In this document: piece after piece, positions 5,040 through 53,527 of the stretch
Layout of the letters: each line of letters opens with the position of its first letter
Numbering within the stretch: position 1 is the first letter of the stretch
Assembly: GCF_016545825.1 (NCBI RefSeq)
Contig: NC_052619.1
Coordinates: forward strand, 2,867,501-2,931,500
DNA length: 64,000 nt
Direction of reading: 5' to 3'
Origin: Eucalyptus grandis
Lineage: Eukaryota; Streptophyta; Magnoliopsida; Myrtales; Myrtaceae
Notes under the pieces: generated by a model
What the model was told of the DNA's origin: nothing
Database searches by the model: none
What the model saw: the letters and a program-made list of their open reading frames with translations, nothing else
Program-made: the position numbers and the translations under genes

Positions 5040-5520
5040 TCATTTGCCAATCATTTTATGCGACTGGGTTCTACCCGGACCAGAGGGCGCACGTTTTCTG
5101 TTTGTGTTGGTGGCGTAGCAAGCCAGCCCAACCGATTTGTCTGCGACCTCGGCTGCAACACTGTCCGAGCATGGGTCGACGGCGAGGGGAATCCTTGCAT
5201 GGACTTCTTCATCGACCCCACGAATCGCGTTCGGTCGAACGTATTCCGAGCAAGGGATCGTCTCCGCGTCTCCATTGAGACTCGTTCCCGCGCCTCCCTT
5301 GACTTTGCGCGTCTCGCATGAGAAAGAGGGCCGATGGCTCTCTCTCCGATGGACTTCCAAGGCGACTGCATCCTCCTCCTCCTCATCTGTTTCTTCTTCC
5401 TCGTCTTGTGCCGCCATCCTTCGATGGGACTACGACGTCTTCATCAGCTTTTGAGGCTAGGACACTCGCGCAAATTGGCTGGATTCTCTTGATTGTTGTT
5501 TGTCTGGTAAAGAATTTATG

Positions 5521-6784
5521 GGGAGAATTACCAAAAAAATTTTAAATCTTTAAACCTATTGCAATTATGCTAATTCAGTCCTAAACTTTTTTTTGGCTAA
5601 TTTAGTCATAAACCTTTTTATAATTATGTCAATTCAATCCATCCAGCCAAAGTTAGCCAGCTGGCACTGACGTGGACGCTGGCAGGGATAGCCGATCGGC
5701 GAACGCTGATGTGGCAATTTTTAATTTTTTCAATTTTTTAAATATTTTAAAATTCTTTTTTTTCTCGCTTTCTCCTTCCTCTAGCCGGCCGGCCAAAGGC
5801 GAGGGCCGGCAAGGCTCACCCCGCCGGCCGGAGGCGAGGGCCAACGAGGTCAACCTCACTAGCCACCGACGAGGGCGAGGCCCCACCGGATTTGGCAAGG
5901 TCAGCCTTGCCGCCTAGCCGGGAGGGCCTCGCCCAACCAAGGCAAGGGTCAATCTTGCCAAGGATGTCGGGCTTCTCTGGCAAGTGATAGCAACAACGGT
6001 GGAGATCGGAACAGAGAAGCAGACATTGCTGATGAGCTTGATGAGGTTCTAGGCGACAGCTCCGCTCCTACATCCGGGATCTTTCATTGGGGGGCTCGCT
6101 TTCTTGCCTTTTTGCGGCGGGCGGTCGAGACCCGAAGCGCACGAGTGAAAGAGCCGAAATGGGAGCGAAAAGATGAGAACGTGGAGATTGGTTTTCCACT
6201 TGCAGTCAAGCTCGAGTTGCAGAAATGGAGATGGAGACGAGGATGTCGGGTTTCTCTGGCGAGGAGCCTTGCCAGCCACTAGCGAGGTCAACCCTCACCT
6301 TGGTTGGGTGAGGCCTTGCTGGATCTGGCGAGGCTTGGCCTCGCCTAGCTTTGGCGAGGACCGAGCTCGCCAAATCTAGCGAGGCCTCGCCCTCTCCGGG
6401 CCGGCAAGGAGGCCTTGCCAGATTCGGCGAGCTCGCCCCCTCACCTCCGGCCTGCGGGGCGAGCCTCGCCGAGTGGTCGGTGAGGCCGACCTCGTCGGCC
6501 CTCACCTTCGGCCAGCACCGGTCAGCCAAAGGAAGGAGAAGGTGAGAAAAAAAGAATTAAAAAAATTTAAAAATTTAAAATATATTAAAAAATTGCTACA
6601 TCAACGTTCGCCGGCCGGCTATCTCCCGCTAGCGTCCACATTAGCGTTGGCCGGCCAATTTTGGCCGGATGGACTGAATTGGCACAATTATAAAAGGTTT
6701 AGGACTAAATTGGCCCCAAAAAAAAAGTTTAGGACTAAATTGGCATAATTGCAATAGGTTTAGGACTTTTTTGGTAATTCTCCC
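5521..6784. mobile_element. Non-autonomous Mutator-like element inserted in intron 1 of copy A
   Basis: The ends are gggagaattacc (5521) and ggtaattctccc (to 6784), with inverted repeats extending over about 200 bp ('taggactaaattgg' blocks and their complements). A flanking duplication agaatttatg / agaatttctg (5511-5520 and 6785-6794) differs at one base. Copy B carries the uninterrupted site at about 13819, so the insertion came after the tandem duplication. The interior is GC-rich, built from 'ggcgaggcc'-like words, and has no transposase; open frames there are compositional. Confidence 0.88.
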
Positions 6785-8569
6785 AGAATTTCTGCTAGAT
6801 CAAATCAGATTAGAACTGGCTAGAATTGGTAAAGATGAAGCTTGTTGCATAAATTTAGCAGAATTGTTTGAGAAATGGAGTTTCGATTGAGCCTGCGTCG
6901 AAGGAGGAAGCAGAAATATGTGTTTAGAACTGGCATTCTCACTTTCATAGTCTGCTGGATCCGATACATTACATGGATGCATTGAGAGACATTTGAGCAA
7001 CTTATGCTCCTAAAATTGCTGACATTTGTTGATCCGAAGGTTAATGTGTTGAATTCTCAGTCCCTTTCTGGTTTTTTTATGACCAAGATTACTAGTCTCT
7101 TATTTGCTCAACTAGCTTCCAATCATGCATACCTTACCTTAGTGCACCGTGTACATCTCTGTGCTCAAGCACTTTAATAACTGACAACATGAAACTTATC
7201 ATCACTCTTTTTATTTCATAGTCAAACTCAAGGGGTAGAGTCTAACCACTTCTTGCCGCTTGATCGATTCATCTGTTCTCCGTTCAGGAACAAGGTTTTG
7301 TTTCTGATAATCCTCCTCATCAGCTTATTATTAGCAAAGGATGTGCATACCTGTGCTAGATATGGGTAGCTAGAGTAAATAGTTTAACCTCTGGAGAACC
7401 TAATGCTGTTGTACATACATCATTTGGATATGTGGTACCCCCTAAAAGATCTCTAACAAGTAAATATCAACTTTCTTTGTTTAGCTTGGTTTAGCGGGCT
7501 GTCACATTTTTTTATTAGTGATTGCAATTCGCAGTCTTGAATCTGAACTCATCCAGAAAATTATCGAAGAAGTGTCAAGCAAACTTCATCGCTCATACTT
7601 GTATGTTGCAAAGCATCCTATTGCTCTTGACAAACATGTACAGGCTTTAAGAACATTATTGCACATAAAGGATGATGGTGTTCGCGTGGTGGGTTTCTGT
7701 GGGATTGGCGGAATAGGCAAGACAACCATCGCTAAAGCATTATACAATATGATCGCTGATCAATTTGAAGGTAGCAGCTTTCTAGCAAATGTCAGAGAAA
7801 TTTCTCGGCAATATGGCCTATATAAACTGCAAGAAGCTCTTCTTCATGACATTTCGGGGCATAATACCATAAAGGTGGGCTACATTCAGACAGGAATAAA
7901 TTTGTTATGATGTATCTAACTTGTTTTCATGCACATAAGGGTGTGCACCCAGACAGAGAATTTTGTCTTTTTGAGCGTGATTTACTCCTGATCGCATGTT
8001 CGCTTTGGATTTGAAGGGAACAAACTCTGTTGAAGGTATTAAATTAGACATGCTTGAACCTGAAGAGGTGTTTATAGGTACGAAAGCCATCAAGCAGATG
8101 AAAAGGCTAAGACTGATTATGGTTCGTAACATACGTGTATCCGGATGCCCCAAGTATCTTTCGAATGAGATAAGGTGGCTCAATGTGCATGGAAACAACT
8201 TGCCAACCACTGTAAAGAGCAATGGTCTTGCACAACCTAGAAATCATGATTCCAGCCCCACCAAACTTGCTAAGAATGAGAAACATCGTGGTCAGATCAG
8301 AACAATCTTGTTCAAATTTAGATGCAAAGGTGCGGCATCAAGAAATCGTAGAATTAATTGTGGAGTTGCTCTGTCAGACTTTAAATGTATCATGGCTTCC
8401 GCATATAAGCTTGCCCTGTTTTTATGCTCCAGAAGACGCGAGGGATATAGTTATAACAATGGCGGACCAGATTCTAACAGTGATGTGCTGTTGGAAGAGT
8501 ATTCGGTATATTTTTGTCGTTTCAATGGCTTTATTTCTCATTACTTTATTTTACTGAATTGCTTGCGGA

Positions 8570-9345
<776 letters not shown>

Positions 9346-9380
9346 CAATTCTTAGTGTTTTTCTTTTTCTTTTAATTTGA

Positions 9381-10562
9381 TTGAACTTTTTAGTTAATGT
9401 GCTTCGCCCTCTTGATTCCATTACGTGTCTTTGGAATAAATTGAAATTATTCGATGCATATGTTTGAGGTGATAATGTTATTGTTAAGGAAATTGAGGTT
9501 CGATTCCAGCAGTGCCAGAAATGCCACCTCTACTTTGAAGTCCACGGGAGGCTGTATTATGTTGTTTGTCACACGTCCGACCATGGCAAGAATCCTTGAT
9601 TGATTAAGGAGACTCCACATGTTAATCACGATGTTGGTCCTCAAAATCATCAATTCAAATTGCTTATACCTTGCTGCCGTGATTGCCGCTGTGCCACGCT
9701 CTCCTCATATCGCCAGGGCCCAACCACCCTTGTCGTTGGTGCCCGGATGGCGGCAGCCACTTTCGCTCCCACTTCTCTCTCCATACAAGGGATTGAGCTC
9801 GCCTTTTCTTCTTCCCATTTTTTTTAGTATTTCGATTTTTGCCAACGCCATGGGCCAGAATAGTGCGGATGTGACGATCCAAATGGATATCCTCGTTTGC
9901 ATATCGGACCAAAAGATAAAAACATTTAAAAAATCTCGAGATCACAATATCAAATGAATCGCTAAATTTCTAAAAGTCATTGATACAATTTTCCTCCGTA
10001 AAGTTCAGGAACCTCACAAATTACACAAAAAGGGTAATTCATCAAAAGTCAAAAGTATCAAAATCGCCCAAAAAAAAAGTCAATTGATTAGAAATCTAAC
10101 GAAACGACTCGTGTGCGGTTCACATCCTCCCCCAACAATCTCCCACATACCCTACACTACACAACAACCTCCTTTGATGTGAAACTCCATGCGTGTATCT
10201 TCGCAAGAAAACGATGAAAGATCGAACGGAAGAAGAAATCAAAACCCAATTTGGACGTCACCGTCGCCTCCATGAATGGCAGAAATGGACGAGCCAGCCA
10301 GCCCCTCGATTTAAGATATCGAATTGACTGAGATCGATCGTGAGTGATGGTAAAATTGGGGAAAATGACACAACCCCATTAAATTATTATTACTCCTCTT
10401 TTTATATATATTTTTTTCATATTAAGGCAACATAAAATGAATAAATAAAAGGAAAAATTGGTGGCCACAATTTTCGCGCGGCTGCTAATGACTGGTGGCA
10501 ACTCGTGGGTTTGGACCCTGCCGTCGCACGGTTGGATCCACCATATTTCTTGCTTTTGATTT
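9381..10562. other. 3' flank of unit A
   Basis: From about 9520 this resumes similarity to the 3' flank of copy B (17560-18618). The 9346-9500 stretch has no counterpart there and replaces the kinase C-terminus. It contains 'ggttcgattcc' at 9499-9509, which resembles a pol III B box, but no A box is clear. No gene is seen. Confidence 0.5.
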
Positions 10563-10849
10563 GGAAACACCATTTTTTCCAATAAGAAATAAAATAGTCA
10601 CATCATGAGATGACATTAAAAACTACAGAATTATCAATTCACATAAAATCTTGACATCACGTATGAACACAATATCGTTATAAGATACAATATCGTCATT
10701 AGATGCAACTTTTTGGCATATGTCATATCTTGCTACAATTGTAATACTTCACACATCTCATTAGCCTTGATTTAGACCTACCTCTTGACTTTCCCTAATT
10801 ATTGTTATTATGAAACTTTTTTGATTGACTTATCGCTCTATTTTCTATT

Positions 10850-13019: not shown

Positions 13020-13183
13020 TCCTTCGTTTTGCGTTAGCTGGGCCCCACTTGAGGGTGGACCCAGCCAACACCATGAAGCCAGCCCGACCGTGGCAGCAAT
13101 GTCTGAAATTGCTTCGGCGGCGCATGGATCGTCCCCGCATCTCTGACTCGTTCCCCCGCCGCCGTTGACTTTCGCGCGCCTCG

Positions 13184-13191
13184 CATAAAAG
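13184..13191 (+). promoter_or_regulatory. Possible TATA box of copy B
   Basis: 'cataaaag' lies 36 bases before the ATG at 13227, which would give a very short leader. Copy A has 'catgagaa' here. An out-of-frame ATG at 13198 precedes the real start. Weak call from position and sequence only. Confidence 0.25.
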
Positions 13192-13226
13192 AGGGCCATG
13201 GCCGCCCTTCTCTCCGACGGTCTTCC

Positions 13227-16200
13227 ATGGCGGCTGCATCGTCATCCTCATCATCTTCTTCTTCTTCTTCCTCGTCTTGCGACGCCGTCCCTCGATGGGA
13301 CTACGACGTCTTCCTCAGCTTCCGAGGCGAGGACACTCGCGCTGGCTTCGTCAGCCACCTCCACAGCGCCCTCCGCCGCGGAGGAGCCCGCGTTTTCATT
13401 GACGACGAGCTCCGGCGGGGGGAGAGGATCTCCCTTTCGCTGGAGCGGGCCATTGAGAGCTCCAGGATCGCCATCGTCGTCTTCTCCCGCAACTTTGCTG
13501 CCTCCACCTGGTGCTTGCAGGAGCTGACCAAGATTCTCGAGATGCAGGACTCGAGAGGGCAACTGGTCCGGCCGGTGTTCTACCACGTTGACCCAAGCGA
13601 TGTGCGGAAGCAGACCGGGGACTTCGCGGAGATCATGGCGAGGCATGAAGAGGTTTTTGGTGGTGGTGGTGGTGGTGGCGATGGTTCGGAGAGAGTGAAG
13701 AAGTGGAGAAACGCACTTCGCCAAGCGGCTAATTTGTCCGGATGGCATCTAGACAAGGGGTAACTGTCTAATTACTCTCGGCTAATTGACTGGATTCTCT
13801 TGATTGCTGTTTGTTTTCTAGAGAATTTCCGTTAGATTATGTCAGGTTAGAATTCGCTAGAACCGGTAAAGATTAAACTCGTTGCCTAAATTTAGCAGAG
13901 TTGTCTGAGAAATGGAGTTTTAATGAGTCTGCTTAGAAGCAAGCAGGAAGCAGAACTGTGTTTGGAACTGAAATTTTTACTTTCAGAGTGTTGATGTTCT
14001 GATAAATAACGCGGATGCATTGAGAGACATCGTTTCGCCTTATGCTCCTGACATTGCTAACATTTGTGGTTTCCAAAGTTGAATGTGTTGAATTATAAGT
14101 CTCATTTTATTTTTTGGATGGCCAAGAATTATTGGTCTCTTATTTGTTCAATTAGCTTCGAATCATGTATCCCTTCCCTTAGTGTTCACCGTGTATATCT
14201 CTATGGTTAAGCACTTTAATAACCGGCAAGATTATAGTTATCATCACAAGTCAAATTCGAGTACTGGAATCTAACCAGTTCTGCAGCTTAATTGGTTTCT
14301 ATCCCCTCGGATCAGGAGGAAGGTGTTACCTCTGATAATCCTCCTCATCTGCTTATTTAGTTTAGTTTAGCAGGGGATGTGCCCGCTGTACTAGATTAAG
14401 GAAGCCAGACTAAATAGTTTAATCTTTGTAGAACCCAATGGCCATCGTATGATGCATCATTTGGAAATCCGCTACTTTTCAAAGAGCTCTTACAAGTAAA
14501 TATCAACTTCTTTTGTTTAGTTTTTTGGCTTAGTGGGTTGTCACATATTTTTAATGATTGCAATTGGCAGTGTTGAATCTGAACTTATCCAGAAGATTGT
14601 TGAAGAAGTGTCAAGCAAGCTACACCGCCCATACTTGAATGTTGCGCAGCATCCAGTTGCTCTTGACAAACATATACAGGCTATTAGAATGTTGTTGCAT
14701 CCAGAGGACAATGGCATTCGTGTAGTGGGTATCTGCGGGATTGGCGGAATAGGCAAGACAACCATTGCTAAAGCTGTACACAATATGATTGCTGACCAAT
14801 TCGAAGGTAGTAGCTTTCTGACAAATGTCAGAGAAATTTCTTGGCAGTATGGCCTAGATAAATTGCAAGAAGCTCTTCTTCGTGACATTTTGGGGGATAA
14901 AACCATAAATGTTGGCTACATTCAGACAGGTGTAGATTTGATAAGGCAAAAGCTTTGCAATAAAAGGATTTTGTTAGTTCTTGATGATGTGGATAGTACA
15001 GACCAACTAAGGGGCTTATTGGGTGAAAGAGGTTGGTTTGGTCAGGGGAGTAGAATAATTTTAACAACAAGAGATGAACAAGTAGTAGTCACTCACGGTG
15101 CAGAAATCTATAAGGTCGGTGAACTAAATTATGATGATGCTCTTCAACTTTTTAGTTGGAATGCCTTTCAGGAACCATCTCCTACAAGAGATTACCAGCT
15201 TATCTCCTTTGGCTTTGTTCACTTTGCCAAACGTCTCCCTTTGGCTCTTATTGTATTGGGATCTTTCTTGAGTGGTAAGAGTATTCAAGAATGGAATTGT
15301 GCATTAGAAAGATTGAGAGTCATTCGTGATGGTGAGATTGATGAGATTCTAAAAATTAGTTTTGATGGATTGGAAATTCATGAACAAACTATCTTTCTTG
15401 ACATCGCTTGTTTCTTCAAAGGTGAAGATAAAGATACTGTAACAAAGCTGCTAGATCGCTGTAACTTTTATCCAGACAAGGGGCTCCAAATTCTCTCTCA
15501 AAAATCACTTATATATATAGACTCAAACAAGATCTGGATGCATGACTTGCTTCAAGAAATGGGTCGAGAAATTGTGCGTCAAGAATCTCCTGAGAATCCT
15601 GGCGGCGCAGCAGACTCTGGTATCATGAGGATATTCTGAGAGTCTTCCGAGAAAATTTGGTAATTTTTCAATTCAATAAGATCTGCATTTTCTTGTTCTT
15701 GAAAGCTAATATTTCAAAAAATTACTAGATGGATGACACTACAATTACTTTAGGGTGCGGCACTTTGTCATTGACTTGACAATTTAAATGCATATACATA
15801 GGTTCTTGCATGAAGACCCACGAATGTTTAGGAATCTATTTATGATGCATCTAACTTGTTTCCATGTACACAAGGTTGCGCACACAGACACAGTATTAAG
15901 TCTTACCCAGTAAGATTAACTATTGATTGCATGTTTGCTTTGGATTTCAAGGGAACAAACTCTGTTGAAGGTATTAAATTAGACATGATTGAGCCTGAAG
16001 AGGTGTTTATGGGTACAAAAGTTCTCAAACAGATGAAAAGGCTTAGATTGATTTTGGTTCGAAACATCCATATGTCTGGATGCCCCGAGAATCTTTCGAA
16101 TGAGATAAGGTGGCTCGATGTGCATGGAAACAACTTGCTAGCACCTGTAGAGAGCTCTGGTCCTGCACGACCAAGCATTCATGATTCCAGTCCCACCAAA

Positions 16201-17436
16201 CCTGCTAAGAATGAGAAACATCATGGTCGGATCAGAACGATCTTGTTTAGATCAAGAAACTACAAAATTAATTGCAGAGATGCTCTGCCAGACTTTAAAT
16301 GTATTATGGCTCCCTCGCATAAGCTTGCCCAATTTTTATGCTTCAAAGGACGCAAGGGTTGTACTCATAATCATCGCCAAGCAGATTCTGACCGCGGGGA
16401 CTCTGACAGCGCGAGTGCAGATTCTGAGAGTGATATGCCCTTGCAGGTATATTGTTGTCATCTTGATGGCTTTGTTTCTCATCACTTCATTATACTGGAT
16501 TCCTTGCTGATACAATTTGCTTCTCAGGTGTTCAGAAAATTTTCGAAGGCTGAGCTAATTCATGCAAGTAACAATTTCTCCGATCATAATAAGATTGGAG
16601 TAGGCAGCGCCGGTTCAGTGTATTACGGGATATTGGATGGGCGGGAAGTGGCCATCAAGTGGACATATGTAACCAGAAAAGGCTTTGAATATGGTGCTTT
16701 CATCGCCGAGATCCAGACTCTCTGTCATGTCAATCACAAGAATCTTGTTCGGATGTTGGGATTTCATGCAACATGCAGTGAGCACGCCCTAGTATGTGAG
16801 TACATGAACAATTGCTTGCTATTCTAACAACTTTACACTTTCAAAAGCTCAGCTCTGATTTCGTGGACGACACGGCTCAAGGTGGCACTAGATGTCGCGA
16901 GGGGAATGGAGTACTTGCATGAATTCACACGTCCTCAAATAGTGCACGGAGATGTGAAGTCAGCAAACATATTGCTGGACAAAAGCTGGACTGCCAAAAT
17001 TGCAGATTTTGGATCCTCCGTCCATCTTCCTGAAGATGAAGAATCAGACCATCGGGAAGTTGTTAGCGGCACCATGGGTTATTTGGCTCCAGAATATATC
17101 TCGACCAATAGACTAACAACTAAGGCGGATGTGTATGGCTATGGCATCGTGTTGCTTGAACTATTATCTGGGCGCAAAGCACTCCAAAGGGATGAAGATG
17201 GCCCATTATGCCATATCACGGAGGTCGTAGTTCCAAACATAATCGAGGGTAAAATTTGCCAGTCTCTGGACCCAAGATTGCCAGTTCCGGCCCATTTCGA
17301 GATGATAGCAGTATCAGACATGGCGTACCTCGCGGTGGATTGCGTTCACATGCAAGCGGAAAACCGACCCCCTATGACTTATGTAGTGGACTCCCTCAGG
17401 AGTGCTTTAGCTAAATGCTTACCGGATTGTCTCTAA
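13227..17436 (+). CDS. TIR-NB-ARC protein fused to a CCR3/CCR4-like kinase, copy B (one frameshift, one nonsense codon)
   Basis: Exon 1 (13227-13759) encodes a serine-rich leader and a full TIR domain: YDVFLSFRGEDTR, FIDDELRRGE, and the STWCLQEL segment with the glutamate required for NAD-cleaving activity in TIRs. Exon 2 (14571-15659) is a complete NB-ARC: P-loop GIGGIGKTT, kinase-2 LLVLDDVD, RNBS-B GSRIILTTRDE, LPLAL, RNBS-D FLDIACFFKGED and MHD in WMHDLLQEMG. Exon 3 (from 15952) has only about 65 residues of LRR-region start (GTNSVEGIKLDM...NEIRWLDVHGNN), an acidic Ser/Asp linker, then a kinase domain to the stop at 17434-17436. Splice phases fit, but exon 2 is one base short near 15605 (a GGC-CGC context), and TAA at 16825-16827 interrupts the kinase in frame. 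Uninterrupted, the product would be about 1,035 residues. It is a predicted intracellular immune receptor with the LRR replaced by a kinase. Whether it is expressed or a pseudogene is open. Confidence 0.75.
16528..17436 (+). CDS. CCR3/CCR4-type receptor-like kinase module within copy B
   Basis: The opening VFRKFSKAELIHASNNFS, glycine loop GVGSAGSVY, lysine in REVAIKW, HGDVKSANILLD catalytic loop, ADFG, GTMGYLAPEY, DVYGYGIVLLELLSG and the PEDEESD insert, with the C-terminal VVPNI...LDPRLPVPAHFE block, together match the CRINKLY4-related kinases CCR3/CCR4 of Arabidopsis rather than SRK, WAK or LRR-VIII kinases. The catalytic HRD is HGD, so it is a non-RD kinase, but the aspartate and DFG remain. 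One TAA (16825-16827) falls between subdomains V and VIa; the frame is otherwise open. No convincing transmembrane helix lies in this frame. An 81-bp stretch just upstream (16447-16527) could be an intron (cag|gtat ... ctcag|g), divisible by three. Confidence 0.7.
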
Positions 17437-18618
17437 TCACTCTGCGGATGAAACTAACCTGAAATCTACTGCATAGCAGATATGTTTAAATTCTGAGAGC
17501 TTACATCTGCTTAATGTTGAGTATAATCATTGTAAACATTACGTTTGAGTATAATCATTCTAGCCAAGCCAAAAATGCTGCTTCTACTCTGAAGTCCGCC
17601 GGAGGTCATTCTATGTTGTTTGTCGCAAGTCTAACGTAATCGTTGATTGATTAAAGGAGGCTCCACATGTTAACAACGATGCTGGTCCTCAAAATCATCA
17701 ATTCAAATTGGTTATGCCTTGGTGCCGCAATTGTGGCCCTGCCTAGCTCTCCTCATATCACGAGAACTCGACCGCCCTTTTCGATGGTGCCTAGATGGCG
17801 GTGCCCACCTTATCTCCCTCTTCTCTCTCCATACAAGGGTTTGAGCTCTCCTCTTCTTCTTCCCACTTTTTTGTAATATTTCGACTTTTGCCGACGCTCT
17901 GAACCAAAGTAACTGACAATCCAAATGAATATTCTTATTCGCATACCAGACAAAAAGATAAAATTTCTTAAAAAAAATCTCAAGATCATAATATTAAACG
18001 AATTGTGAAATTTCATAAAACCATCGATCCCATTTTCTTCCTCAGAGTTCGGGAACCTCACAAATTACAGAAAAATGGGTAATTCATCGAAAGTTGAAGG
18101 TATCAAAGATGCCCTAAAAAAAAGCCACCGAGTTGATTAGAAATCTAACAAAAGCACTAGTGTGTGGTTCACATCCTCCCCGACAATCTACACACATAAC
18201 CTTCACTACACAACGACCTCCTTTGACGTGAAACTCCATGCGTATCTCTTTGCAAGAAAACGACGAAAAATCGAATGGAAGAAGAAACCAGAACCCAAGT
18301 TGGACATCACCGTCGCCCCCATTAATGCCAGAAAAGGACGAGCCAGCCAACTCTATTTAAGATATCGAATTGACTGAGATCGATCCCGGGTCTTGGTCAA
18401 ATTGGGGAAAATGACACAACCCCATTAATTATTATTACTATTATTATTACTCCTCTTTTTTATATATTTTTCTTATTAAAGGCAACATAAAATGAATAAA
18501 TAAAAAGGAAAAGTTGGTGGCCACAATTTTCCCACGGCTGCAAATCAATGGTGGCCACTCGTGGGGTTTGGACCCCACCGTCGCACGGTTGGATCCACCA
18601 GATTTCTTGCTTTCGATT

Positions 18619-19554
18619 TGGGCAGATCCAAAATATTTATAAAAATAAAAAGAATTATAAAGAAAGACATGAAGGACATCTTATCTTCACGCCCTCAACT
18701 CTCCACCAATCACCTCCGCAATTCGCGGCCCCCTACCATGAAATTATTATTTTTTATTCTCGTTTTCCAGTTCCATACAAAAATAAAATATATATATAAA
18801 AGATAAATACACCCTTCCTTCCACAATCGTACATTTTAAGCTCAACTAATAATTCGGTGGTCTCCTCACGTGTTGATGACTCTTTATGTATCTGACCGAT
18901 AAATTGCACAATGCATCGATCAATCAACTCAAGGAAGAAAAGGAGTTGAAAATTATAATTCTACAATTTTGAAGGGATGTAGGTTTTTTAAAAAAGGAAC
19001 AAGATGCATTTTCGAATTATCTTCCACGAGTCTTGTTGGGAGTCTTGAGATCTTCTTTTTATTTAATTAATTAGCCAAATAAAGAAGGGCAAACACATAG
19101 GTCTATACATGGAAAAAAGGAGATCTAGGTAGAAGCTTTGATTTGAGCTATTCTAAGAGATGGGTGAAATTATTGAGACATGAAAGGCATTACTGTAGAT
19201 GTAAACGCATGAGAGATTAACGAAATGATAATAATGATTTTGTCATTTTGTAATAAGATCTTATCTAATATTTAATAATTACTGTTAATTAAACAACATG
19301 CACGAGCTCTAATGAACTTTCTTGTTTATAGATACACAGCCAACTCATCTCTCTCTCTCCTCTCTCTCTCTTCTCTTTCCTCCTCCTCCTTCCTTCTGCT
19401 TCGATCACTCAGCACCGTCCCGCGATTGGTTCGTCGCTCCGGTAGCGACCTCTGAGCTTCTTCCTCGGTTTCTGCTTCTGGGTCCTCCTCGGCGGCGGGA
19501 AATCTTTCGGCTTTCTGGAGTTTTTCCGGGGGAAAAAAGAAGCAAGAACCGACG
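18619..19554. other. Intergenic region and promoter/5' leader of the B-box gene
   Basis: This stretch is A/T-rich to about 19320. 'tttata' at 19325-19330 is a possible TATA box, followed by a pyrimidine-rich CT tract (19341-19400) typical of plant 5' leaders, and then the leader to the ATG at 19555. I see no other gene. Confidence 0.4.
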
Positions 19555-21816
19555 ATGAAGATACAGTGCGACGTGTGCGAGAGGGCGCCGGCGACGATGA
19601 TCTGCTGCGCCGACGAGGCCGCGCTCTGCGCCAAGTGCGACGTCGAGGTCCACGCCGCGAACAAGCTCGCCAGCAAGCACCAGAGGCTCCTCCTCCACTC
19701 CCTCTCCAGCAAGCTCCCTGTTTGCGACATCTGCCAAGTGAGTCAAGTGGCTTCGGTTCGGTTTCTCAGTTTCTTTATCAATTTCTTTTCTTTCTCTTCT
19801 TTATGTGGTTCTTGTTGGAGCATGCATGAGATCGAGCGACGTGGCGATGACGTTCTGCCTTCTAAACTTCTTCTTCTTCTTCTTCGCTCTCAAGCTGTGA
19901 GAGAAATTGTACTGGGGAATCGAGGGGATTTGTTTGGGGGATCTCTGTCACTGGTGGTTGTTGAGGAAAGAGGGTTCATAAACATGTCGGGTACCTGAAT
20001 TATGTGTAGATTCAGCTGATTTGGGTTACCGAAAGCTTAAAAAGATTTTGATCATAATCGGCTTCAGCTGAGCAGAGTAGTGCACAGGGGTTGCGTTCTG
20101 ATGGTCGGTTGGGTCAGATGAGTGTTGATTTTAAAGGGTGGTCAAAGTTTGAACCTTTTTTTCAGCCACAAAACTTGTAGGAAGGACAGAAACCAGAATT
20201 TGCCTCGAATAACGTTGAGATGCGATGTGGTTCCTCTGTTTTCCAGATCCAGGGTCATACTTTGACTAGGATTGATCTGGGGGGAAATAGCCACGCAAAT
20301 CGTAAGCTCGAATCCATCTTTTGCCGGAATCAACTGCTTCCTGCTCTTTGAGAGTTGATATTTGTTTGATTGTGGCAATATTTTAGGACCTCGAGGCGAC
20401 TGTTGGGAGCCTCTAGCAAAACCCTGGTCCTATCCAAAGTGGTCCGACCCTTCCCCGGACCCTGGACATCACTGGACTTGGTGCACCGTGGCACAGTTAT
20501 GGAAAGATCTTAGGAAGAAATTGAACAGTACAATGATATGTTGAAGTAGTTTCTAGTTTGATGTGCTTTAGAATCAATGAAACGCGAAGATACGCTAAAA
20601 TGGATGACAGCAAGCATCAAACAAGTGTATGATTAATTAAAACAAGATTGTAAAGCAAGTTGGTTCTAGTTGATGAGAAATTTTAGCTCTCTCTCTCTCT
20701 CATAACTACGTTGCTATACAGGAGAAGGCAGCTTTCATCTTTTGCGTGGAAGACAGAGCTCTCTTCTGCAAGGATTGTGATGAATCAATTCATCCCGCCG
20801 GAAGCCTGTCTGCAAATCACCAGAGGTTACTGGCAACTGGAATCAGAGTCGCTCTTAGCTCTAGCTGCACCAAAGAAGCTGAGAAGACTGAACCTGAGCC
20901 ACCAAGCCGGAATAAACCTCATACCTCGGTGAAATCGCCCCAACAGGAAGCTCCCAGTTTCACATCTTCGTGGGGTGTCGATGATGAACTGCTACAGTTG
21001 CCAGACTTTGAATCCTCCGACAAGGTAAGGGATTACAATGTCAATGCTGGAACTCCATGTGCTTTTCCAGCTGTATTTCCCTAAAGAACCTATAATTGCT
21101 CAAATGGGAAGCCACAACCTGCCGTATGATGATCATGAACCCCCAAAAATCTTCAAAATGCTTCTTCATAATGTTATTCTCTTGACTCTACTTCATAGAC
21201 TGCAAGAGTCATAAGGACAACCACTAATTGAAATTCAACAGAAAGCATTTAACACATGACTGCTTCAAATAGGTGATTTTCTTCGAGAGATATGAGGGTA
21301 GAAATTGCATGTGCTAGAGATGTAGAACAAGTTTATGTTTCTGTAGCAAGTACAGCAAAGTTTATTCAATTACAGGACCACATCCTTCTTATGTTGGAAA
21401 TCATATGCTATATCACACACGTCTCGAATGAGTCTTTGGCTTATATTGCATGTGCAATCATTGAAATCAATGTTACCATGTTGCAAGTGGGATCATTGAA
21501 ATTAATGTAATCTTCGAAAATGGCAAACATTTTCCTCCCACTCCGTTCTGTATTTAAAAACTAACGATTGCCTTTATTTTTGCAGAAGGAACAACTCGAG
21601 TTTGGTGAGCTAGAATGGCTCGCCGATATGGGTCTCTTTGCTGATCAGGTTCCTCAAGAAGCCCTAGCCGCAGCTGAAGTTCCTCAGCTCCCGTTGCCAC
21701 CCTCAAGCAACTGCACTTCATACCGGACCTCGAAATCCCAGATGCCTCACAAGAAACCTAGGATTGAATACGTAGATGATGACGACGAGTTTTTCACCGT
21801 TCCTGATCTTGGCTGA
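19555..21816 (+). CDS. BBX24: Double B-box zinc finger transcription regulator, BBX24/STO-like
   Basis: There are three exons: 19555-19737, 20722-21024 and 21586-21816, with consensus borders and matching phases, giving 238 residues. Exon 1 encodes B-box 1 (CDVCERAPATMICCADEAALC...CDVEVH...HQR). Exon 2 encodes B-box 2 (CDICQEKAAFIFCVEDRALFC...CDESIH...NHQR). No C-terminal CCT domain is present, which places it in the two-B-box, CCT-less group. Exon 3 ends with a basic KKPRIEY patch, an acidic run and TVPDLG, as in STO/BBX24 and BBX25. Family knowledge: these nuclear proteins act in light signalling, interacting with HY5 and COP1 and promoting shade or de-etiolation responses; the VP-type tail contacts COP1. 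The exact paralogue (24 or 25) is inferred from memory of the family. Intron 1 is about 1 kb. Confidence 0.9.
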
Positions 21817-38629: not shown

Positions 38630-41103
38630 GTCTGTAAAAGGAATGAAAATAGATAAGTGCATTCAAACTTCTAAAGATTGTCACAAATATGTTTCTAAAC
38701 TTATTTTATTATGTAATCAAATACTTCAATTAGTTCTATTAAATTTGAGTAATGAACAATGTCGGTGTGACTTGTTTTATTAATCTCTCTTTACTATGTT
38801 GCCATTATGTTAATAAAGAGTGCAATGATGGCCAAAGTAATGCTGCTTACTAGATTAAAATGTAAAGGCGCTTCGCCGAGGACGGCTACTATTAAAAAAG
38901 AAAAAGAAAAAGGAAAGGAAAGGAAAACATGCTCTATCAGAGGATGCATCTCCATCCCCTACTCCGCCGGCTGAGAACCTCCTTTTCATTTTATTTCACA
39001 ATATTGGACATCTTTTTCCCTCAGATACATGGCAGTTACATGCTGAACATAGAGGGACATTGAAAGTTTTGCCTGCTGTAATTAAAGATATTTCATGCAT
39101 AAAGAGTGGAAGAAAATTGTCTTGAACTAATCTATAAGTTCATGCAGGATGAGAAATTTAAAAGAATCTAAGAACTGTCGCTTGAATTGTACAATGGAAG
39201 GCGAAAATGCAGAAGGCACTGAGCTGCATATGAGAAACATTGAACGTGATTTTGAAAGATTTGCAGAATCACACTGAGCACCTAACAATAGAAAAGTCGA
39301 TGATGTAATTCAGAGAATCAGAGAAATTGAGGAGGATCAGTCAGAGAACTCGGAGAGCAAAGGATTTTGACTCATGGAGTGCAAGATTTCCCTTGTTTGA
39401 ACTTTCGGCAGTTCTCTGCTTTCCTAGCTACTATCAGAATCCGGTTCACAACTGCTATATCATGTTCAATTTGGGAGAAGATATTTCAAGGTGAACTGAG
39501 AAAGAAGGCCTTACTAGAAATCTGGAATATCTCAGTTCAAGGTGCCTACATCGGTGAGTTGTGGCCTGGCCACTTGCATAATCTCTCCGTGTGCTCATTA
39601 AAAAATGTGAGAAATGGTGGGAGTGAAATCTGTCCATGTTCTTCTTATTCCACATCGTGCCAATACATTGGAGTCCGCTGGATTTAAAAGGACTGTTATA
39701 GTATCTTTCCCAATTCCAGTTCTTTTCTTTGGCTTGTTGCAAGCATTTCACAGGAAACCAGCAGGATTTTCTTGACAAATTGACCTTCAGATGCAACTTC
39801 AGCTCTTTTCTTGGCTTGTTGCAAGCATTTCACAGTAAACCAGCAGGATTTTCTTGACAAATTGACCTTCAGATGCGACTTCAGCTCTTTTCTTGGCTTG
39901 TTGCAAGCATTTAACTGGAAACCAGCAGGATTTCTTTGACACACTAACCTTCGGATGTTTATCGTTTGCCTGTGAGACCATTGTGGTGACCGCTTCTGGG
40001 AACTTGACAAGCTGCAGTCGTTCATGCTTTCATCCTTTCATCTCTATATTAGGTTGGGATTCCCCTAAGGCAGAATGCATGGATATTTCGCCTATCAAGA
40101 AGAATTCATGTGTATTTGTAGAGCAAATTCTTTCATTTTTCAGTCGGCTGGGCACTCTTCTTGGTTAGATAGTTCTATATATGGCAATTTTGAATACCGT
40201 CTTTTTGTCCCGCCCGATTACAATGCAACTATAGAATTTATTTTGACCATATACAGATAAAGACTTTGGTTTTCCCCTTAGGTAGGGAAATTGTCACTGT
40301 CTCAGGTCGCATTGATGGTGTCATATCTAGGTATTGTATAATGGTAATGTTCATAGTAAGAGTAAATCCAAGTCAAAATACAAGAGTGAAAGGACAAGAA
40401 GTTGAAGGGGTCAAAGAGAGTAAGCAGACGATTTTGGAATGATGCAGTCAATTGTTTCTGTCGAATATTTCAGAAGTCGTTGCACATAAGCGAGCTTATG
40501 TAAAACATGAACCACATTTTCCCTTCGTTCGTCCAATCTTTTCTGTCCTTTTTTGGTGGAAGTAGTGATGCAAATTTGCTGGTCTCCTTCCATCAGATTT
40601 CTTTTCCCAAAGGAAATAAAAGAAGGAAGTTTCCATCTTGACAATCAATGACAATGGGGCTATCAAAATGCTACCAAACAAGAGAACCACAAACTACAAA
40701 CGCACGAGAATCTTGATCCTTTTCTTCCATGTGCTCAACTTCGCCGCGCCCCCACCATTCGCCACTCGATTAGATCTCCGTTCACTCGGATCCGTTCGTA
40801 TCAACCACATGAGAGATCTACCGTGCATTGCACCTCGAATTACTCGATCCATGTGGTTAGTGGCGGCAATGGAGACTCCGGAACGCCTTCCTCTCGCACG
40901 TGCTCGAGCTCTTCGGCGCGCGAACCATGAAAACAAATGACACAAAGGAACCCCAAATCCTTCCAATCTCTCCCTCCTTTTCTTTCCCCTCCCCTCACGC
41001 ATCCACCCACCATGGAGAAAAATACTATGTACAACTTCATGAAAATTTGAAAGAAGAGAAGAGAGAAGGATAAAAAGAAGGAAAAAGAAAAACATAATGT
41101 GGG
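38630..41103. other. Intergenic region
   Basis: No gene is supported. It holds the 82-bp tandem repeat at 39717-39960 and several short open frames without family resemblance. The 40700-41103 part is GC-richer and would include the 3' UTR of the minus-strand calmodulin-like gene. Confidence 0.4.
39717..39960. repeat. Tandem repeat, 82-bp period, about three copies
   Basis: The phrase ggcttgttgcaagcattt starts at 39731, 39813 and 39895, exactly 82 bases apart, followed each time by 'cagcagga' and 'ttcttgac'. Since 82 is not a multiple of three, the repeat does not conserve one reading frame. Confidence 0.85.
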
Positions 41104-41748
41104 TCAACTCAAAGCGCTGAAGCCGCCACCTTTCATCATCTGCTTGAACTCCTTGAAGTCGACCATCCCATCACCATCCACATCCACCTTCATGATCATC
41201 CTCTTGCAATCCTCCAACGTCCTCCCTTGCTTCAGCCCCAGGGAGGCCAGCACCGACCTCAGCTCATCCACCGTGATGAACCCGTCCCCGTTCTGGTCGA
41301 ACACGTTGAAGGCCTCCCTCATGTCCTCCTCCTCGTCGCGCTCCTCCATGATGGACCGGTACAGCGCGCCGAACTCGTCGATGTCCACGCAGCCGTCGCC
41401 GTTCACGTCGATCTTCTCGATCATCTCCGCGAGCTCCTTGTCGGGGATGTAGATCCCGAGGTTCTCGAGCGAGTCGCTGAGCTCCTTCTTGGTGATCCGC
41501 CCGTCCCCATTGCGGTCGAACATCTGGAAGACGCGCTTGAGCTCCGCGGCGTCCATCGGGGCCTTGACCAGAGAGAGGGAGCGGAGCAACGACGACGGAG
41601 CCGGCGGCGGTGGCGGCGGCGTCGGGTCGAGGCGGAGAGGGGACCAAGAAGGAGGGAGGTAGACTCTCAGCTTCTTGGGGACCAAATAGTGGAACCAAGT
41701 GTGGAGGAGGTGGTAAAGGAGGAAAATCCTTGTGATTATGGCTGGCAT
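41104..41748 (-). CDS. Calmodulin-like protein with N-terminal membrane anchor (CML5-like)
   Basis: An intronless minus-strand gene of 214 residues. The N-terminus [20 protein letters not shown] is hydrophobic and is followed by [11 protein letters not shown]; Arabidopsis CML4/CML5 carry a very similar segment that places them on endomembranes. A Pro-rich linker leads to four EF-hands: [39 protein letters not shown] and [13 protein letters not shown]. Each loop has Asp or Asn at the calcium-binding positions and Glu at position 12, so all four should bind calcium. The start is the MPAI methionine at 41748, because upstream in-frame residues (to 41877) look like leader sequence. The C-terminus is KGGGFSALS. 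It is predicted to act as a calcium sensor at endomembranes. Confidence 0.92.
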
Positions 41749-41906
41749 TGCTATGCTTTGGCTCCTTTGTTGGTGGGTTGGTTGGCGTTTGATGAATTGT
41801 GTGGTGAGCGTTTGGGGAGCGATGAGAAATTCTCGGGGAGACACAAGGCAGAACTTCTGTGAGAGGGAGTTCTTCAAATAGAAAGTTGGGGGAGGAGGTG
41901 GGAGTG

Positions 41907-41912
41907 TTTATA
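41907..41912 (-). promoter_or_regulatory. TATA box of the calmodulin-like gene
   Basis: Minus-strand 'ctataaacac' lies about 160 bases upstream of the ATG at 41748, which would put transcription start near 41880. It is a good match to plant TATA boxes, inferred from sequence and position only. Confidence 0.5.
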
Positions 41913-48927: not shown

Positions 48928-49997
48928 GTGCATCCAACCCTCTTAAAGTATCTTGTTAATTCAATCAGACAACATGACAATTTTCCACATCCCACTTTAT
49001 TACCAAAGGTGACACATATAAAGTTATCTCTTATGAATTCAAATTGAAGACCATTCTTCTCAATGTGCAATCTCAATTAAGCCTTAAAATAACTCAAATG
49101 ACTCATTGGAAGTCGATAATCTAACTTCTTGGATCGGGTAATGATTTCTGTATGAAAACCGGAAGGATTACATTTTCCTTCATCTATAATTAGAGAATGC
49201 CCCTAATTGATAGCAAATTATAAATTACGGACACCATCCATGTACAAACTTAATTAGATGACACTGCTGGTGATGGTCATGTTTGTTCCACCAATAAGAG
49301 TGGTTGAAGGAAAGCTACGGATGAAAACTTGGTCCAGGAAAGGAAAGAAATGGGTAATTATAATGAGGCGAGCTGTAATCTAACTCAAGCAGCTGGCAAG
49401 CATATTGCAACAGTACTAGTACTATGGCTATGTTACTTGATTGATGGTCTTGCATCTGGTTGCTGGGGCCGGATTGACTGGGCTATAATTGAGATCATTT
49501 AAGCCCATTGGCTCACAAGAGATTGACCTCCCAAGCCCAATGGGCCAAAAACATGACTCATCCTTGGTAGACGGCCTTTAGTAGCTGACATCGATAGAGG
49601 TTTTTCTTCTTTTTCCTATTCCAAAACGGAATCGCTCTTCAGCTTTTCATGTTGGAGCTAAGCATTGTCTGAAAGATTATTATTCTCGTCTACTGACCGT
49701 CTCGAGGTAAGTGCGTTCGTCGTCTTCAAGACTTTCATGTGAGATATGAAATATGGCTAAGATTATCGGCTGTTTGTTCCAAAAAACCTTGAAAATATTA
49801 TTACCAGAAATAAAAGAAAATTCGGTGGAAAGCATATAAATAGGATTACTTTATATGTGAGATATAAATATAATTTCAGCTTTTAATGCTTCCCAAATGC
49901 TGGAAAATATTTGATATGTGACTTTCATGGTTCATGAAATATTGAAAAAAACAAAATAAAAATAAAAATAAGTGAGCAAAGAGTAGGAAGTATCGAG
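48928..49997. other. Intergenic region
   Basis: Nothing recognisable. A potential splice-donor-like 'gaggtaagtgcg' at about 49703-49714 follows a pyrimidine-rich stretch, but no coding exon follows. Confidence 0.4.
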
Positions 49998-50069
49998 TGC
50001 CCCCACGCAGGATCGAACTACGGACCTTCAGTTTACAAGACTGACGCTCTACCACTGAGCTATAGGGGC
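49998..50069 (-). tRNA. tRNA-Thr (anticodon UGU)
   Basis: The minus strand folds into a full cloverleaf: acceptor gcccctA pairing with tgggggc, D arm tagctcagtggtagagc, anticodon loop cttgtaa (anticodon at 50035-50037) and T arm ggttcga-type 'agttcgatcct'. A/B boxes are intact and there is no intron. It decodes ACA and, by wobble, other Thr codons. CCA is not encoded, as expected for a nuclear gene. Confidence 0.92.
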
Positions 50070-51245: not shown

Positions 51246-52657
51246 GTTAAGCCGGTTTGCTTAGAAAAATTAGAATTGGAAACTTTCATTTGGTGAGATT
51301 TATGAAATTTTTGACCTTCTCAATCTTGTATTTCACTAAATGATTAAGCATATGGAAAGCAGGAAAACTCCTTAAATATGAAGAAAGAAGAAACAACATA
51401 AAAGAAAAATACACTATCAGTTTGGATTTGCTTGTGGGCAAGCAAAATACACCGAGGGGGAATTAAGTAAGGATGAAAAAGAGTGGCAAATCATAATTAC
51501 CTATCCGTGTCATTTCATGTCATGATCAAAATATTCCAATACAATGACTAATGGTTTTTAACCAAAAATTTATAAAAGGTTGCCGGTTCATGTCAATTTC
51601 AAATTGGCTACTTTGTATTATGTCGTGTTCAATTTAAATTTGGAATTTTCAATTTAATTCATACAATATTTGGAACTTTTTTTTTTTTTTGGTATTGGAA
51701 ATTGCAAGCTCTAGTGTGAAACAATTTACCCTCATTTATTCCATACATCGCATTGTAATTTAATATTTCTTCTCTATTTAGTATTAAATCCAAATCAAGA
51801 GAGAAAAATAAATTTCCTTTTTCAGAAAAGGATGCTAACTTGGGTTTTAGTTTGCAAATAAAAGAGTTTATATCCAATGTCTCTTAGTGAATAAAAAAAA
51901 AAAAAAAAAAAAAAAAATTTAATGTCTAGTTTATCTACATCGTTTGCACATTGGAGATTTGATATTATTTATTTATGAATCCTTAAGCACCATATGATTT
52001 ATTTTGGAACAATACTCCTCCATAGTCCATGGATTTCCTTTTCATGAATAATGCCATCGAAGTTGTTTCTTTAAATATTGCACGCGCGCAAAAATAACAA
52101 GGGAATAACTTTTATTTTGGTGAAAGTAAACACTATAGAATTCAGCAAGGTAATGATTTTTTCAGGACAAAAACTATCATAGAAACAAAACTATAAATCG
52201 ACGATGATTTGCCACAATACCTTCATAATTAGATTGCAAGAGTAACTATAGACATACAAAAACCTAATGCTACTTACTCTAATTTCTGAATGACATTTTG
52301 CTTGATTTAGACATTCAATATCTATTAATGTTTTCCAGTCTCTCTTTTTTTTTTTTTGGTAGAATTTTCCAGCCATAAATTTGCATGAGGAAGACAAAAA
52401 CAATTTCCCCCTCTCCAAAATAGCACTAGAAAAAGTATATTAGGGAGAGAGAGAGAGAGAGATCTAGCCTCACCCTCGTGTAGCCAATCAAAATCCTCCC
52501 TGAAATTGCTCCTGATGAGATCCTTTTTCACTTCCCACTTCCCCTCTTCTCCTCCCTCCTTATCTTTCCCCCACACCATCATCATCATTCCATACTCATC
52601 TCCCTCCCTCGTCACACCAGACCACCCCACAAACTCCTCTCTCCCTCTCTCCATCGA
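51246..52657. other. Intergenic region and GUN4 promoter/leader
   Basis: A/T-rich sequence with A runs at 51892-51917. A (GA)n tract at 52447-52462 and a pyrimidine-rich stretch to 52650 probably form the GUN4 leader. No other gene is seen. Confidence 0.45.
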
Positions 52658-53527
52658 ATGGCGACGAATTCTCTAAACCCCCTCCGCCACCATCACAGCC
52701 GCCACCACGGCGGCCGCCACCACCACCTCAGACGCCGCCACTCCCTAGACTCCCCGTCCTCTCTCTTCCTCAAACCCACCACCACCACCACCATCACCAC
52801 CGCACAGTCTCTCTCCACCTCCACCACCACCACCTTTTCTCTCTCCCCCGCCACCTCCTCCTCCTCCTCCACCGCCGCCGACGCCGCCACCGCCACCACC
52901 CCCTCCCCCTCCCCCTCCTCCACCTCCCTCGACCTCCTCGAGCGCCACCTCGCCGCCAAGAACTTCCGGCAGGCCGACGAGGAGACCCGCCGCCTCCTCA
53001 TCGCTCTTGCTGGCGACGCCGCCCTCAAGCGCGGCTACGTCTTCTTCTCCGAGGTCCAGTTCATCGCCGCGGCCGACCTCAAGGCCATCGACGGCCTGTG
53101 GCGTCGCCACAGCGGCGGCCGCTTCGGGTACAGCGTCCAGAAGAGGCTGTGGGACAAGTCCAAGCGGGACTTCACGAGGTTCTTCATCAGGCTCGGGTGG
53201 ATGAAGAAGCTGGACACGGAGGTGGAGCAGTACAACTACAAGGCGTTCCCGACCGAGTTCATGTGGGAGCTGAAGGAGGACACTCCCGAGGGCCACTTGC
53301 CGCTCACCAATGCCCTGCGAGGGACTCGGCTGCTCAGCAACATCCTCACTCACCCGGCTTTCGCCGACGCGGAAGCCGAAGGAGGAGGAGGAGAAGAAGG
53401 AGAGGCGCAAGAACGAGGTGATCCAGCAATCAAGAAAGGCGGGTTGTTGAAGGGCTTGAAGGGCGAGAACGCCTCCTCCTCAAAGCCGCAATCCGAAAGG
53501 GTGTTCAAACCAGACTACAGCTTCTGA
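52658..53527 (+). CDS. GUN4: Tetrapyrrole-binding protein GUN4, chloroplast
   Basis: An intronless gene of 289 residues. The first 75 or so residues are rich in His, Ser and Thr with few acidic residues, as in a chloroplast transit peptide; the run of His and Thr codons is unusually long. The GUN4 core follows: DLLERHLAAKNFRQADEETRRLL, GYVFFSEVQFIAAADLKAID, GRFGYSVQKRLW, FIRLGWMKKLDTEVEQYNY and TPEGHLPLTNALRGTRLL. The C-terminal tail is acidic and then basic, ending FKPDYSF; the end is a phosphorylation region in Arabidopsis. GUN4 binds protoporphyrin IX and Mg-protoporphyrin, activates Mg-chelatase through CHLH, and takes part in plastid-to-nucleus signalling. The start ATG follows a pyrimidine-rich leader. 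The gene appears intact. Confidence 0.95.
   Translation: MATNSLNPLRHHHSRHHGGRHHHLRRRHSLDSPSSLFLKPTTTTTITTAQSLSTSTTTTFSLSPATSSSSSTAADAATATTPSPSPSSTSLDLLERHLAAKNFRQADEETRRLLIALAGDAALKRGYVFFSEVQFIAAADLKAIDGLWRRHSGGRFGYSVQKRLWDKSKRDFTRFFIRLGWMKKLDTEVEQYNYKAFPTEFMWELKEDTPEGHLPLTNALRGTRLLSNILTHPAFADAEAEGGGGEEGEAQERGDPAIKKGGLLKGLKGENASSSKPQSERVFKPDYSF

Follow-up and report, generated by a model that had tools for sequence, protein, structure and literature searches.

A Myrtales gene family joining a TIR-NB-ARC receptor to a CR4L-type kinase, and two apparently disabled tandem copies of it in Eucalyptus grandis

Results

A TIR-NB-ARC-kinase gene family and its copies in the window

The window analysed here, a stretch of 64,000 nucleotides from the genome of Eucalyptus grandis, appears on balance to contain two disabled copies, arranged in tandem, of a TIR-NB-ARC-kinase gene family of the Myrtales. 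We have little doubt that the fused family itself is real. Its gene plan would comprise a ROQ1-like TIR, an NB-ARC with winged helix, a stub of one LRR exon, a linker and a CR4L kinase, the last standing where the LRR (and C-JID) would otherwise be. The domains, splice sites, lesions, tandem copy and relatives of the family are established observations; the join of the domains is real, as the relatives in pomegranate and Melastoma show, and probably of old date.

In the downstream copy, copy B, which lies on the forward strand, the exons follow one another in the order TIR, NB-ARC with winged helix, LRR stub with linker, and CR4L-family kinase, with canonical splice sites. Exon 1 (13227..13759) starts with an ATG and encodes the TIR domain (Pfam TIR, E 5.1e-46), the best solved relatives of which are RPV1 and RUN1. 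Its WCLxEL motif reads WCLQEL, retaining the Glu that we take to be catalytic; in PDB chain 7s2z_A this position is occupied by Ala. Intron 1 (13760..14570), with a canonical GT at 13760 and AG at 14570, is followed by exon 2 (14571..15659), which encodes the NB-ARC (E 2.2e-28) and the winged helix (Pfam WHD_ROQ1, E 1.1e-22), has undamaged P-loop and MHD motifs, and finds its closest solved chain in ROQ1 (E 4.3e-74). Intron 2 (15660..15951) is likewise canonical (GT 15660, AG 15951), and contains, near its 3' end, an in-frame ATG at 15931 at which P0242 and P0240, two models of a kinase standing alone, start.

Exon 3 (15952..16446) begins with the LRR-region opening GTNSVEGIKLDM and continues into the linker. 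The LRR stub is around 60 residues long, extending to about 16128, as does the Punica match (15952-16128). Pfam LRR models gave no match to the window pieces up to an E value of 1, and C-JID was absent from the Pfam matches of the window pieces and of nine scanned proteins. Intron 3 (16447..16527) is 81 bases long, bounded by GT and AG, frame-neutral and free of in-frame stops; it is missing from the relatives P0234 and P0235. Exon 4 (16528..17436) is identified by Pfam, motifs and phylogeny as a CR4L-type protein kinase, having VAIK, DFG and APE motifs and HGD in place of HRD; it is open in two stretches, which match Pkinase at E 3.6e-10 and 3.1e-28. An earlier, sequence-only reading of this locus had described a TIR-NB-ARC receptor bearing a CRINKLY4-related kinase and hardly any LRR, and this much is borne out; the single third exon it envisaged, passing straight from the LRR opening into the kinase, is instead two exons, separated by intron 3.

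Lesions in copy B

As sequenced, copy B is almost certainly disabled. The frame of its NB-ARC ends at a TGA (15637-15639), 20 bases short of the last base of exon 2. Of the 12 relatives compared across this region, six (P0001, P0003, P0234, P0235, P0236 and P0237) match frame 1 upstream and frame 3 downstream, switching near 15603, with each of the other six failing to match on at least one side; since these six relatives change frame at this point, the lesion is a frameshift, and it falls 3' of the MHD motif. Within the kinase there is an in-frame TAA (16825-16827), at which P0234 and P0235 are open. No open frame therefore spans all the exons, and a fused TIR-NB-ARC-kinase protein is not encodable by copy B in the sequence given. 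Hence the three-part structure originally proposed stands as regards its TIR exon, NB-ARC exon and kinase, but not as a single open frame, whilst the NB-ARC exon considered complete is cut short by the frameshift. At most, the product of copy B would be a TIR-NB-ARC protein ending at 15637, the mRNA for which is probably unstable.

It is improbable that both lesions are assembly mistakes and that the E. grandis gene is intact. The lesions number only two, and neither of them interrupts the frame of the near relatives P0234 and P0235; however, the two are separate and of different kinds within the same gene, which moreover adjoins an unmistakably dead duplicate.

A second, more decayed copy upstream

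This duplicate, copy A (5255..10564, forward strand), is a diverged tandem repeat of 13126-18621 in which decay is further advanced. Self-comparison aligns the two copies in four collinear pieces at 77-81% identity, and copy A has the same join. It begins with an upstream region and a broken TIR fragment (5255..5471), followed by an insertion (5511..6793, no strand assigned) whose terminal inverted repeats lie at 5511-5814 and, in the opposite sense, 6793-6490. Only the first part of the NB-ARC (7535..7907) is present, the remainder having been deleted; the LRR stub, linker and kinase occupy 8017..9347, both of these stretches being recognised by self-comparison and Pfam. The downstream flanks of copy A (9503..10564) and copy B (17557..18621) are repeats of one another, again on the forward strand. 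The stub-to-kinase stretch of copy A contains stops at 8920-8922 and 9148-9150 and has lost its 3' end, and the kinase is already changed around the Lys and DFG. Copy A is matched by P0242, an annotated protein of E. grandis, with 100% identity across 75 residues and 95.3% across 215.

Estimated between copies A and B alone, both of them dead, omega is 0.41 (bootstrap 0.30-0.54; 517 codons), being lowest in the NB-ARC (0.24) and 0.47 in the kinase. The evidence for constraint is weak, because the pN of 0.14 between the copies is not appreciably lower than the divergence of the introns and flanks (0.15-0.21).

Relatives carrying the fusion

The domain order of copy B recurs in proteins of at least five named species. 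Chance adjacency of open reading frames was ruled out by the same order being found in copy A and in these relatives. Punica (pomegranate; P0011) and Melastoma (P0016) have a TIR, NB-ARC, winged helix and kinase in unbroken predicted proteins without Pfam LRR or C-JID matches at E values up to 0.01. Both are gene predictions, and P0016 extends, rightly or wrongly, into a B-box gene. The predicted protein P0003 of Syzygium oleosum has an NB-ARC, winged helix and kinase, and partial TIR-NB-ARC-kinase proteins are annotated in Corymbia and two Syzygium species. There were no Pfam LRR matches at E values up to 0.01 in the nine proteins scanned, and no PF13540 either; the fusion proteins each have one kinase, and the RCC1-like PF13540 is likewise absent from P0001, P0002, P0003, P0011 and P0016.

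In P0234 and P0235, which share 97.4% and 94.9% identity with the window across 467 residues, the winged-helix exon, stub and kinase are joined with introns 2 and 3 gone, an arrangement that we take to resemble a spliced mRNA. P0237, like these two, starts in the winged-helix exon. A TIR-kinase protein of Mikania, P0170, was rejected as kin, since its order is kinase-kinase-TIR and it has no NB-ARC match.

Six Myrtaceae copies retain a trace of the TIR or NB-ARC (copies A and B, P0001, P0002, P0003 and P0246). As none of them keeps all three domains intact, the fusion may be dying in this family of plants.

Phylogeny of the kinase

Seventeen Myrtales kinases are placed next to a CR4L clade of 28 rows (supported at 98/90), which contains the CCR4 and CCR3 rows; the Myrtales and CR4L rows together form a group at 100/99. 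Being outside the CR4L clade, the Myrtales kinases are not of the CCR3/CCR4 type to which the kinase had been assigned; a true CCR4 orthologue is ruled out by this position and by the absence of the ectodomain. The Punica kinase joins the other Myrtales sequences with a support of 64/5, and the Melastoma kinase with 93/56. When the Punica kinase was constrained to the CR4L clade, the resulting tree scored better by 1.69 log units (p-AU 0.54), hence its exclusion from this clade is insecure; the equivalent constraint on Melastoma was still acceptable (p-AU 0.38). A single fusion is not proved by the kinase tree alone.

Most of the Myrtales kinases retain the catalytic Lys, the HxD Asp and the DFG; for the HxD position this applies to the 15 of the 17 aligned kinases in which it could be read. 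The HRD arginine has been replaced by G, L or C in eight of these 15, the tree calling for four changes or more, as against none of the 28 CR4L rows.

Discussion

One fusion or several

We favour a single fusion predating the split of Myrtaceae and Melastomataceae. A B-box zinc-finger gene lies 3' of copy B (19543..21813, forward strand) and serves as a synteny marker: in tblastn, three of its exons align collinearly with Melastoma P0016, at identities of 63%, 59% and 47%. P0016 has a B-box Pfam match, and is collinear with the window from the TIR through to this neighbour; because the Melastoma gene model continues into the gene found beside copy B, one old locus can be argued for. That a CR4L kinase instead joined a TIR-NB-ARC gene separately in Lythraceae, Melastomataceae and Myrtaceae seems unlikely. 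Such independent fusions would be in keeping with the weak placement of the Punica and Melastoma kinases, which the AU test leaves unresolved, and with a window linker that is not alignable to that of Punica. However, the break-point is identical in all, a first LRR exon with GT(N/D)xVEGI(K/R)LDM being followed by the linker and then the kinase, and the B-box neighbour is common to Melastoma and the window.

More tentatively, these genes could represent a Myrtales-wide class of LRR-free, single-chain immune receptors. The CR4L kinase would have replaced the LRR and C-JID as sensor once, beside the B-box gene, before Myrtaceae, Melastomataceae and perhaps Lythraceae diverged; repeated loss of the HRD arginine would have followed, and Myrtaceae would now be shedding the receptor half, leaving free kinases born of NLRs.

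What the fused kinase may do

In the intact relatives, those of Punica and Melastoma, the kinase may have assumed the LRR's role in sensing and restraint. Binding or modification of the kinase by an effector would then cause the NB-ARC to switch and oligomerise, and the TIR to produce NAD-derived signals read by EDS1 partners. We consider it about evenly balanced whether the fused kinase is indeed a sensor, rather than an output. It is rather unlikely that it acts as an output or brake, phosphorylating partners or the receptor itself so as to relay or restrain the signal, with recognition taking place elsewhere. The VAIK, HxD and DFG retained by most of the Myrtales kinases would suit such a role, as would the conserved active site reported, in passages of PMC4759884, for NLR-fused kinases, the commonest fusion. 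Against it stands the loss of the HRD arginine, seen in over half of the readable Myrtales kinases and in none of the CR4L rows; with this loss the mode of kinase control has shifted, and such a shift fits a bait at least equally well.

A further reading, possible though doubtful, is fission, the useful product in Myrtaceae being the kinase alone, with or without the stub, as the TIR-NB-ARC half decays. The sequence-only reading had regarded a separately starting kinase with no fused relative as telling against its own proposal of a fused receptor: stand-alone kinase models do exist, as paralogues (P0238 and P0242 in E. grandis, P0239 in S. grande, and P0240), yet so do relatives with the fusion. 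Fission is also consistent with P0242 and P0240 starting at the ATG towards the end of intron 2, and with the TIR or NB-ARC half being incomplete in five of the six Myrtaceae copies, the sixth, copy B, being frameshifted. However, P0234, P0235 and P0237 begin in the winged-helix exon, the NB-ARC of P0003 is whole, and in the comparison of copies A and B the NB-ARC has a lower omega than the kinase, although the reverse would be expected had the TIR-NB-ARC half been lost early. The suggestion of a resistance protein sensing attack on a CCR3/CCR4 receptor is conjectural for the family, and unlikely for copy B itself.

Comparison with known systems

The family is a natural experiment in whether a kinase, and not an LRR, can run a TIR-NB-ARC engine, and the E. 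grandis copy is such a gene caught mid-decay. No description of an LRR-less, CR4L-bearing TIR-NB-ARC lineage was found in the literature searched; an unnamed entry in the supplementary tables of a survey is possible. Surveys demanding an LRR would miss these genes, the downstream analyses described in part of PMC10720953, for instance, being restricted to models with both NB-ARC and LRR.

A TIR, NB-ARC and winged helix are common to this family and to TNL receptors of the ROQ1/RPP1 type; unlike those, it has a kinase where they have an LRR array and C-JID, neither of which was found. LRR-less TIR-NB-ARC (TN) proteins, many models of which are counted in E. grandis in a section of PMC4709456, are what copy B might still encode, here as the by-product of a frameshift and not by design.

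The kinase domain is 50-52% identical to CCR4 examples among the matches listed, and the CCR3/CCR4 (CRINKLY4-related, CR4L) receptor kinases are its neighbours in the tree. PF13540 is present on most CCR4 proteins among the matches listed, whereas the fusion proteins have no RCC1-like ectodomain. The Sr60 tandem kinase of Triticum monococcum, the second kinase of which is given as CR4L in a passage of PMC8956640, matches the window kinase at 42% identity and belongs to the same kinase family; however, it has two kinases and no TIR or NB-ARC, and is not especially near the Myrtales kinases in the tree. The presence of a CR4L kinase in this resistance protein also hints at a common effector target.

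Fusions of NLRs with kinases are an already known kind, kinases being the commonest NLR fusion partner according to that part of PMC4759884. Barley Rpg5, wheat Tsn1 and Arabidopsis WRKY19 all combine an NLR and a kinase in a single chain, as do predicted proteins of the family described here. PMC9528084 places Rpg5 and Tsn1 among the CNLs and also lists WRKY19, a TNL to which WRKY and MAPK-type kinase domains are added; by contrast with these CNLs, and with the different kinase and extra domains of WRKY19, the Myrtales proteins combine an LRR stub with a CR4L kinase, an architecture restricted to Myrtales among the matches listed.

Structure and decay of copy B

Copy B (13227-17436, forward strand) consists of a TIR exon (13227-13759), an exon encoding the NB-ARC and winged-helix domains (14571-15659), one encoding the LRR stub and a linker (15952-16446), and a kinase exon (16528-17436), with GT...AG borders at every intron; exon 1 ends in phase 2, its final codon being completed by exon 2. 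Among solved structures, the TIR is closest to RPV1 and RUN1 and the NB-ARC exon to ROQ1, whilst the second kinase piece has various plant RLK/RLCK kinases as its nearest chains. The sequence-only reading, of a TIR-NB-ARC receptor in which a CCR4-like kinase replaces the LRR within a single open third exon, holds for the domains and their order, but not for the frame. A TGA (15637-15639) terminates the NB-ARC frame, a TAA (16825-16827) interrupts the kinase, and the supposed third exon conceals an 81-base intron, free of in-frame stops.

Six of the 12 aligned relatives (P0001, P0003, P0234, P0235, P0236 and P0237) match frame 1 upstream and frame 3 downstream of a switch near 15603, which indicates a frameshift in copy B just after the MHD region. 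Given these lesions, copy B as sequenced yields at most a TIR-NB-ARC protein, and its mRNA is probably degraded, since a splice junction lies far downstream of the stop; it is possible that the lesions are assembly errors. Close to the 3' end of intron 2 there is an in-frame ATG (15931-15933), with a counterpart in copy A; two annotated models that contain the kinase alone, P0242 and P0240, begin at this codon, which may represent a separate start for the kinase.

Two database entries join the winged helix to the stub, linker and kinase, and in both of them intron 2 and the 81-base intron 3 are absent: P0234, with 10 member sequences and a contig of up to 1828 bases, and P0235, with four members and contigs of up to 2712 bases. 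Their lgn source tag presumably denotes Logan assemblies of public reads. The loss of introns fits a spliced mRNA, although a retrocopy is a possible source. Their coverage excludes the TIR and the NB-ARC core, and P0237, from S. oleosum, likewise starts within the winged-helix exon.

The tandem duplicate

Self-comparison of the window identified copy A (5255-10564) as four collinear pieces with 77-81% identity to the copy B region. It retains a broken TIR fragment and, of the NB-ARC, no more than the beginning, followed by a stub-linker-kinase segment that has two stops and has lost its end; as this arrangement is found here too, the join is older than the duplication. The TIR fragment is separated from the intron 1 remnant by an insertion (5511-6793) with inverted repeats of about 300 bases, 79% identical, at its ends, which looks like a transposable element. 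Omega between the copies is 0.41 (0.30-0.54; 517 codons), being 0.24 in the NB-ARC, 0.46 in stub and linker and 0.47 in the kinase; however, pN (0.14) is not below the divergence of introns and flanks (0.15-0.21), hence the apparent constraint depends solely on the high pS (0.31). The Eucalyptus grandis protein P0242 has 100% identity to copy A over a stretch of 75 residues and 95.3% over another of 215, the shortfall in the latter being located at the splice model; it shares one sequence record with P0238.

Relatives carrying the fusion

A search with exons 3-4, with lengths set by the entire fusion (E <=1e-10), gave 1274 matches, of which the best 120 included five combining the kinase with TIR, NB-ARC or both: P0001 (Corymbia citriodora), P0002 (Syzygium grande), P0003 (S. 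oleosum), P0011 (Punica granatum) and P0016 (Melastoma candidum). No further Myrtales fusion was found among the best 120 of 770 matches to the Punica query, whilst exons 3-4 alone recovered 14 Myrtaceae or near-identical entries among the best 120 of 145. In a Pfam scan of nine proteins, TIR, NB-ARC, winged helix and kinase were all present in P0011 and P0016; P0003 had all but the TIR, P0001 and P0002 had a partial TIR and no NB-ARC, and P0246 had partial TIR and kinase. Neither LRR nor C-JID was detected in any of the nine. When P0002 and P0246, both from Syzygium grande, are compared with the window's TIR exon, their TIR parts fall in two different frames, an indication that these two models are also damaged or wrongly assembled. 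A predicted Mikania micrantha protein (P0170) has the order kinase-kinase-TIR, opposite to that of the fusion.

By tblastn, P0016 matches the window collinearly over the TIR (13293-13760), NB-ARC (14572-15648), stub to kinase (15952-17415) and a B-box zinc-finger gene (19543-19737, 20719-21024 and 21577-21813). This gene (19543-21813, forward strand; at least three exons) is probably included in the Melastoma model through an annotation merge, which thereby reveals the same neighbour in both genomes. Elsewhere the window contains a tandem repeat (39711-39957; unit of about 83 bases, overlapping copies 91% identical), a single-exon reverse-strand ORF (41107-41907) whose EF-hand repeats make it look calmodulin-like on visual inspection, a tRNA-Thr (TGT) predicted by ARAGORN (49997-50069, reverse strand), and a forward-strand ORF (52484-53524) which, by eye, we take to resemble the tetrapyrrole-binding protein GUN4.

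Origin and state of the kinase

The kinase tree (56 rows, 312 columns, built from rows other than ACR4, CCR1 and CCR2) groups the Myrtales and CR4L rows with support of 100/99. Within it, the CR4L clade of 28 rows (98/90) holds the rows named CCR4, one CCR3, Sr60 and other tandem kinases, and the 15 Myrtaceae-type rows form a group (100/99) to which Melastoma attaches at 93/56 and Punica at 64/5. Placing Punica with CR4L was 1.69 log units better and not rejected by the AU test (p 0.54); the equivalent values were p 0.38 for Melastoma and p 0.40 for both together. Hence the sequences place the Myrtales kinases firmly in the CR4L group, whilst a single fusion event is likely.

The HxD motif is readable in 15 of 17 Myrtales rows, with the arginine retained in seven and replaced by G, L or C in eight; it is retained in all 28 CR4L rows and changed in one of 11 outgroup rows, giving five changes over the tree, including that within the outgroup. 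VAIK and DFG are retained in copy B, P0234, P0235, P0001, P0002, P0003, P0011 and P0016, and are replaced by ATK and NFG in copy A. That the HRD arginine was lost more than once, whereas the catalytic Lys and Asp were retained, fits a kinase under changed control, a pattern as compatible with bait as with output.

Comparison with known receptors

The interpretation offered by the sequence-only reading is partly supported: a TIR-NB-ARC joined to a CRINKLY4-related kinase with almost no LRR is borne out, whereas a resistance protein sensing attack on, or signalling through, a CCR3/CCR4-type receptor is speculative for the family and unlikely for this copy. By analogy with integrated-decoy receptors, our best guess is that the kinase would be a bait for, or a restraint on, a TIR-NB-ARC engine. 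To the observed parts and their order we would add the inferred steps that an effector contacts the kinase, the NB-ARC then switches, and the TIR signals as an NADase via EDS1. The window copy is a wreck, yet it indicates a conserved receptor design that is apparently undescribed.

A literature search for TIR-NBS-kinase and similar phrases found nothing, and no kinase fusion was seen in the available sections of the E. grandis NBS-LRR paper (PMC4709456); a Melaleuca analysis was, in its available text, restricted to models with NB-ARC and LRR (PMC10720953). In the portions available of each source, kinases, RD as well as non-RD, are the most abundant NLR fusion (PMC4759884, with no mention of Eucalyptus in that main text), NLRs with Pkinase occur in 105 species (PMC12787737, with Myrtales, Eucalyptus, Punica and Melastoma absent from that main text), and the studied NLR-IDs include Rpg5, Tsn1 and WRKY19 (PMC9528084). 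The kinase group itself recurs in Sr60, the second kinase of which is, in the excerpts available, CR4L (PMC8956640).
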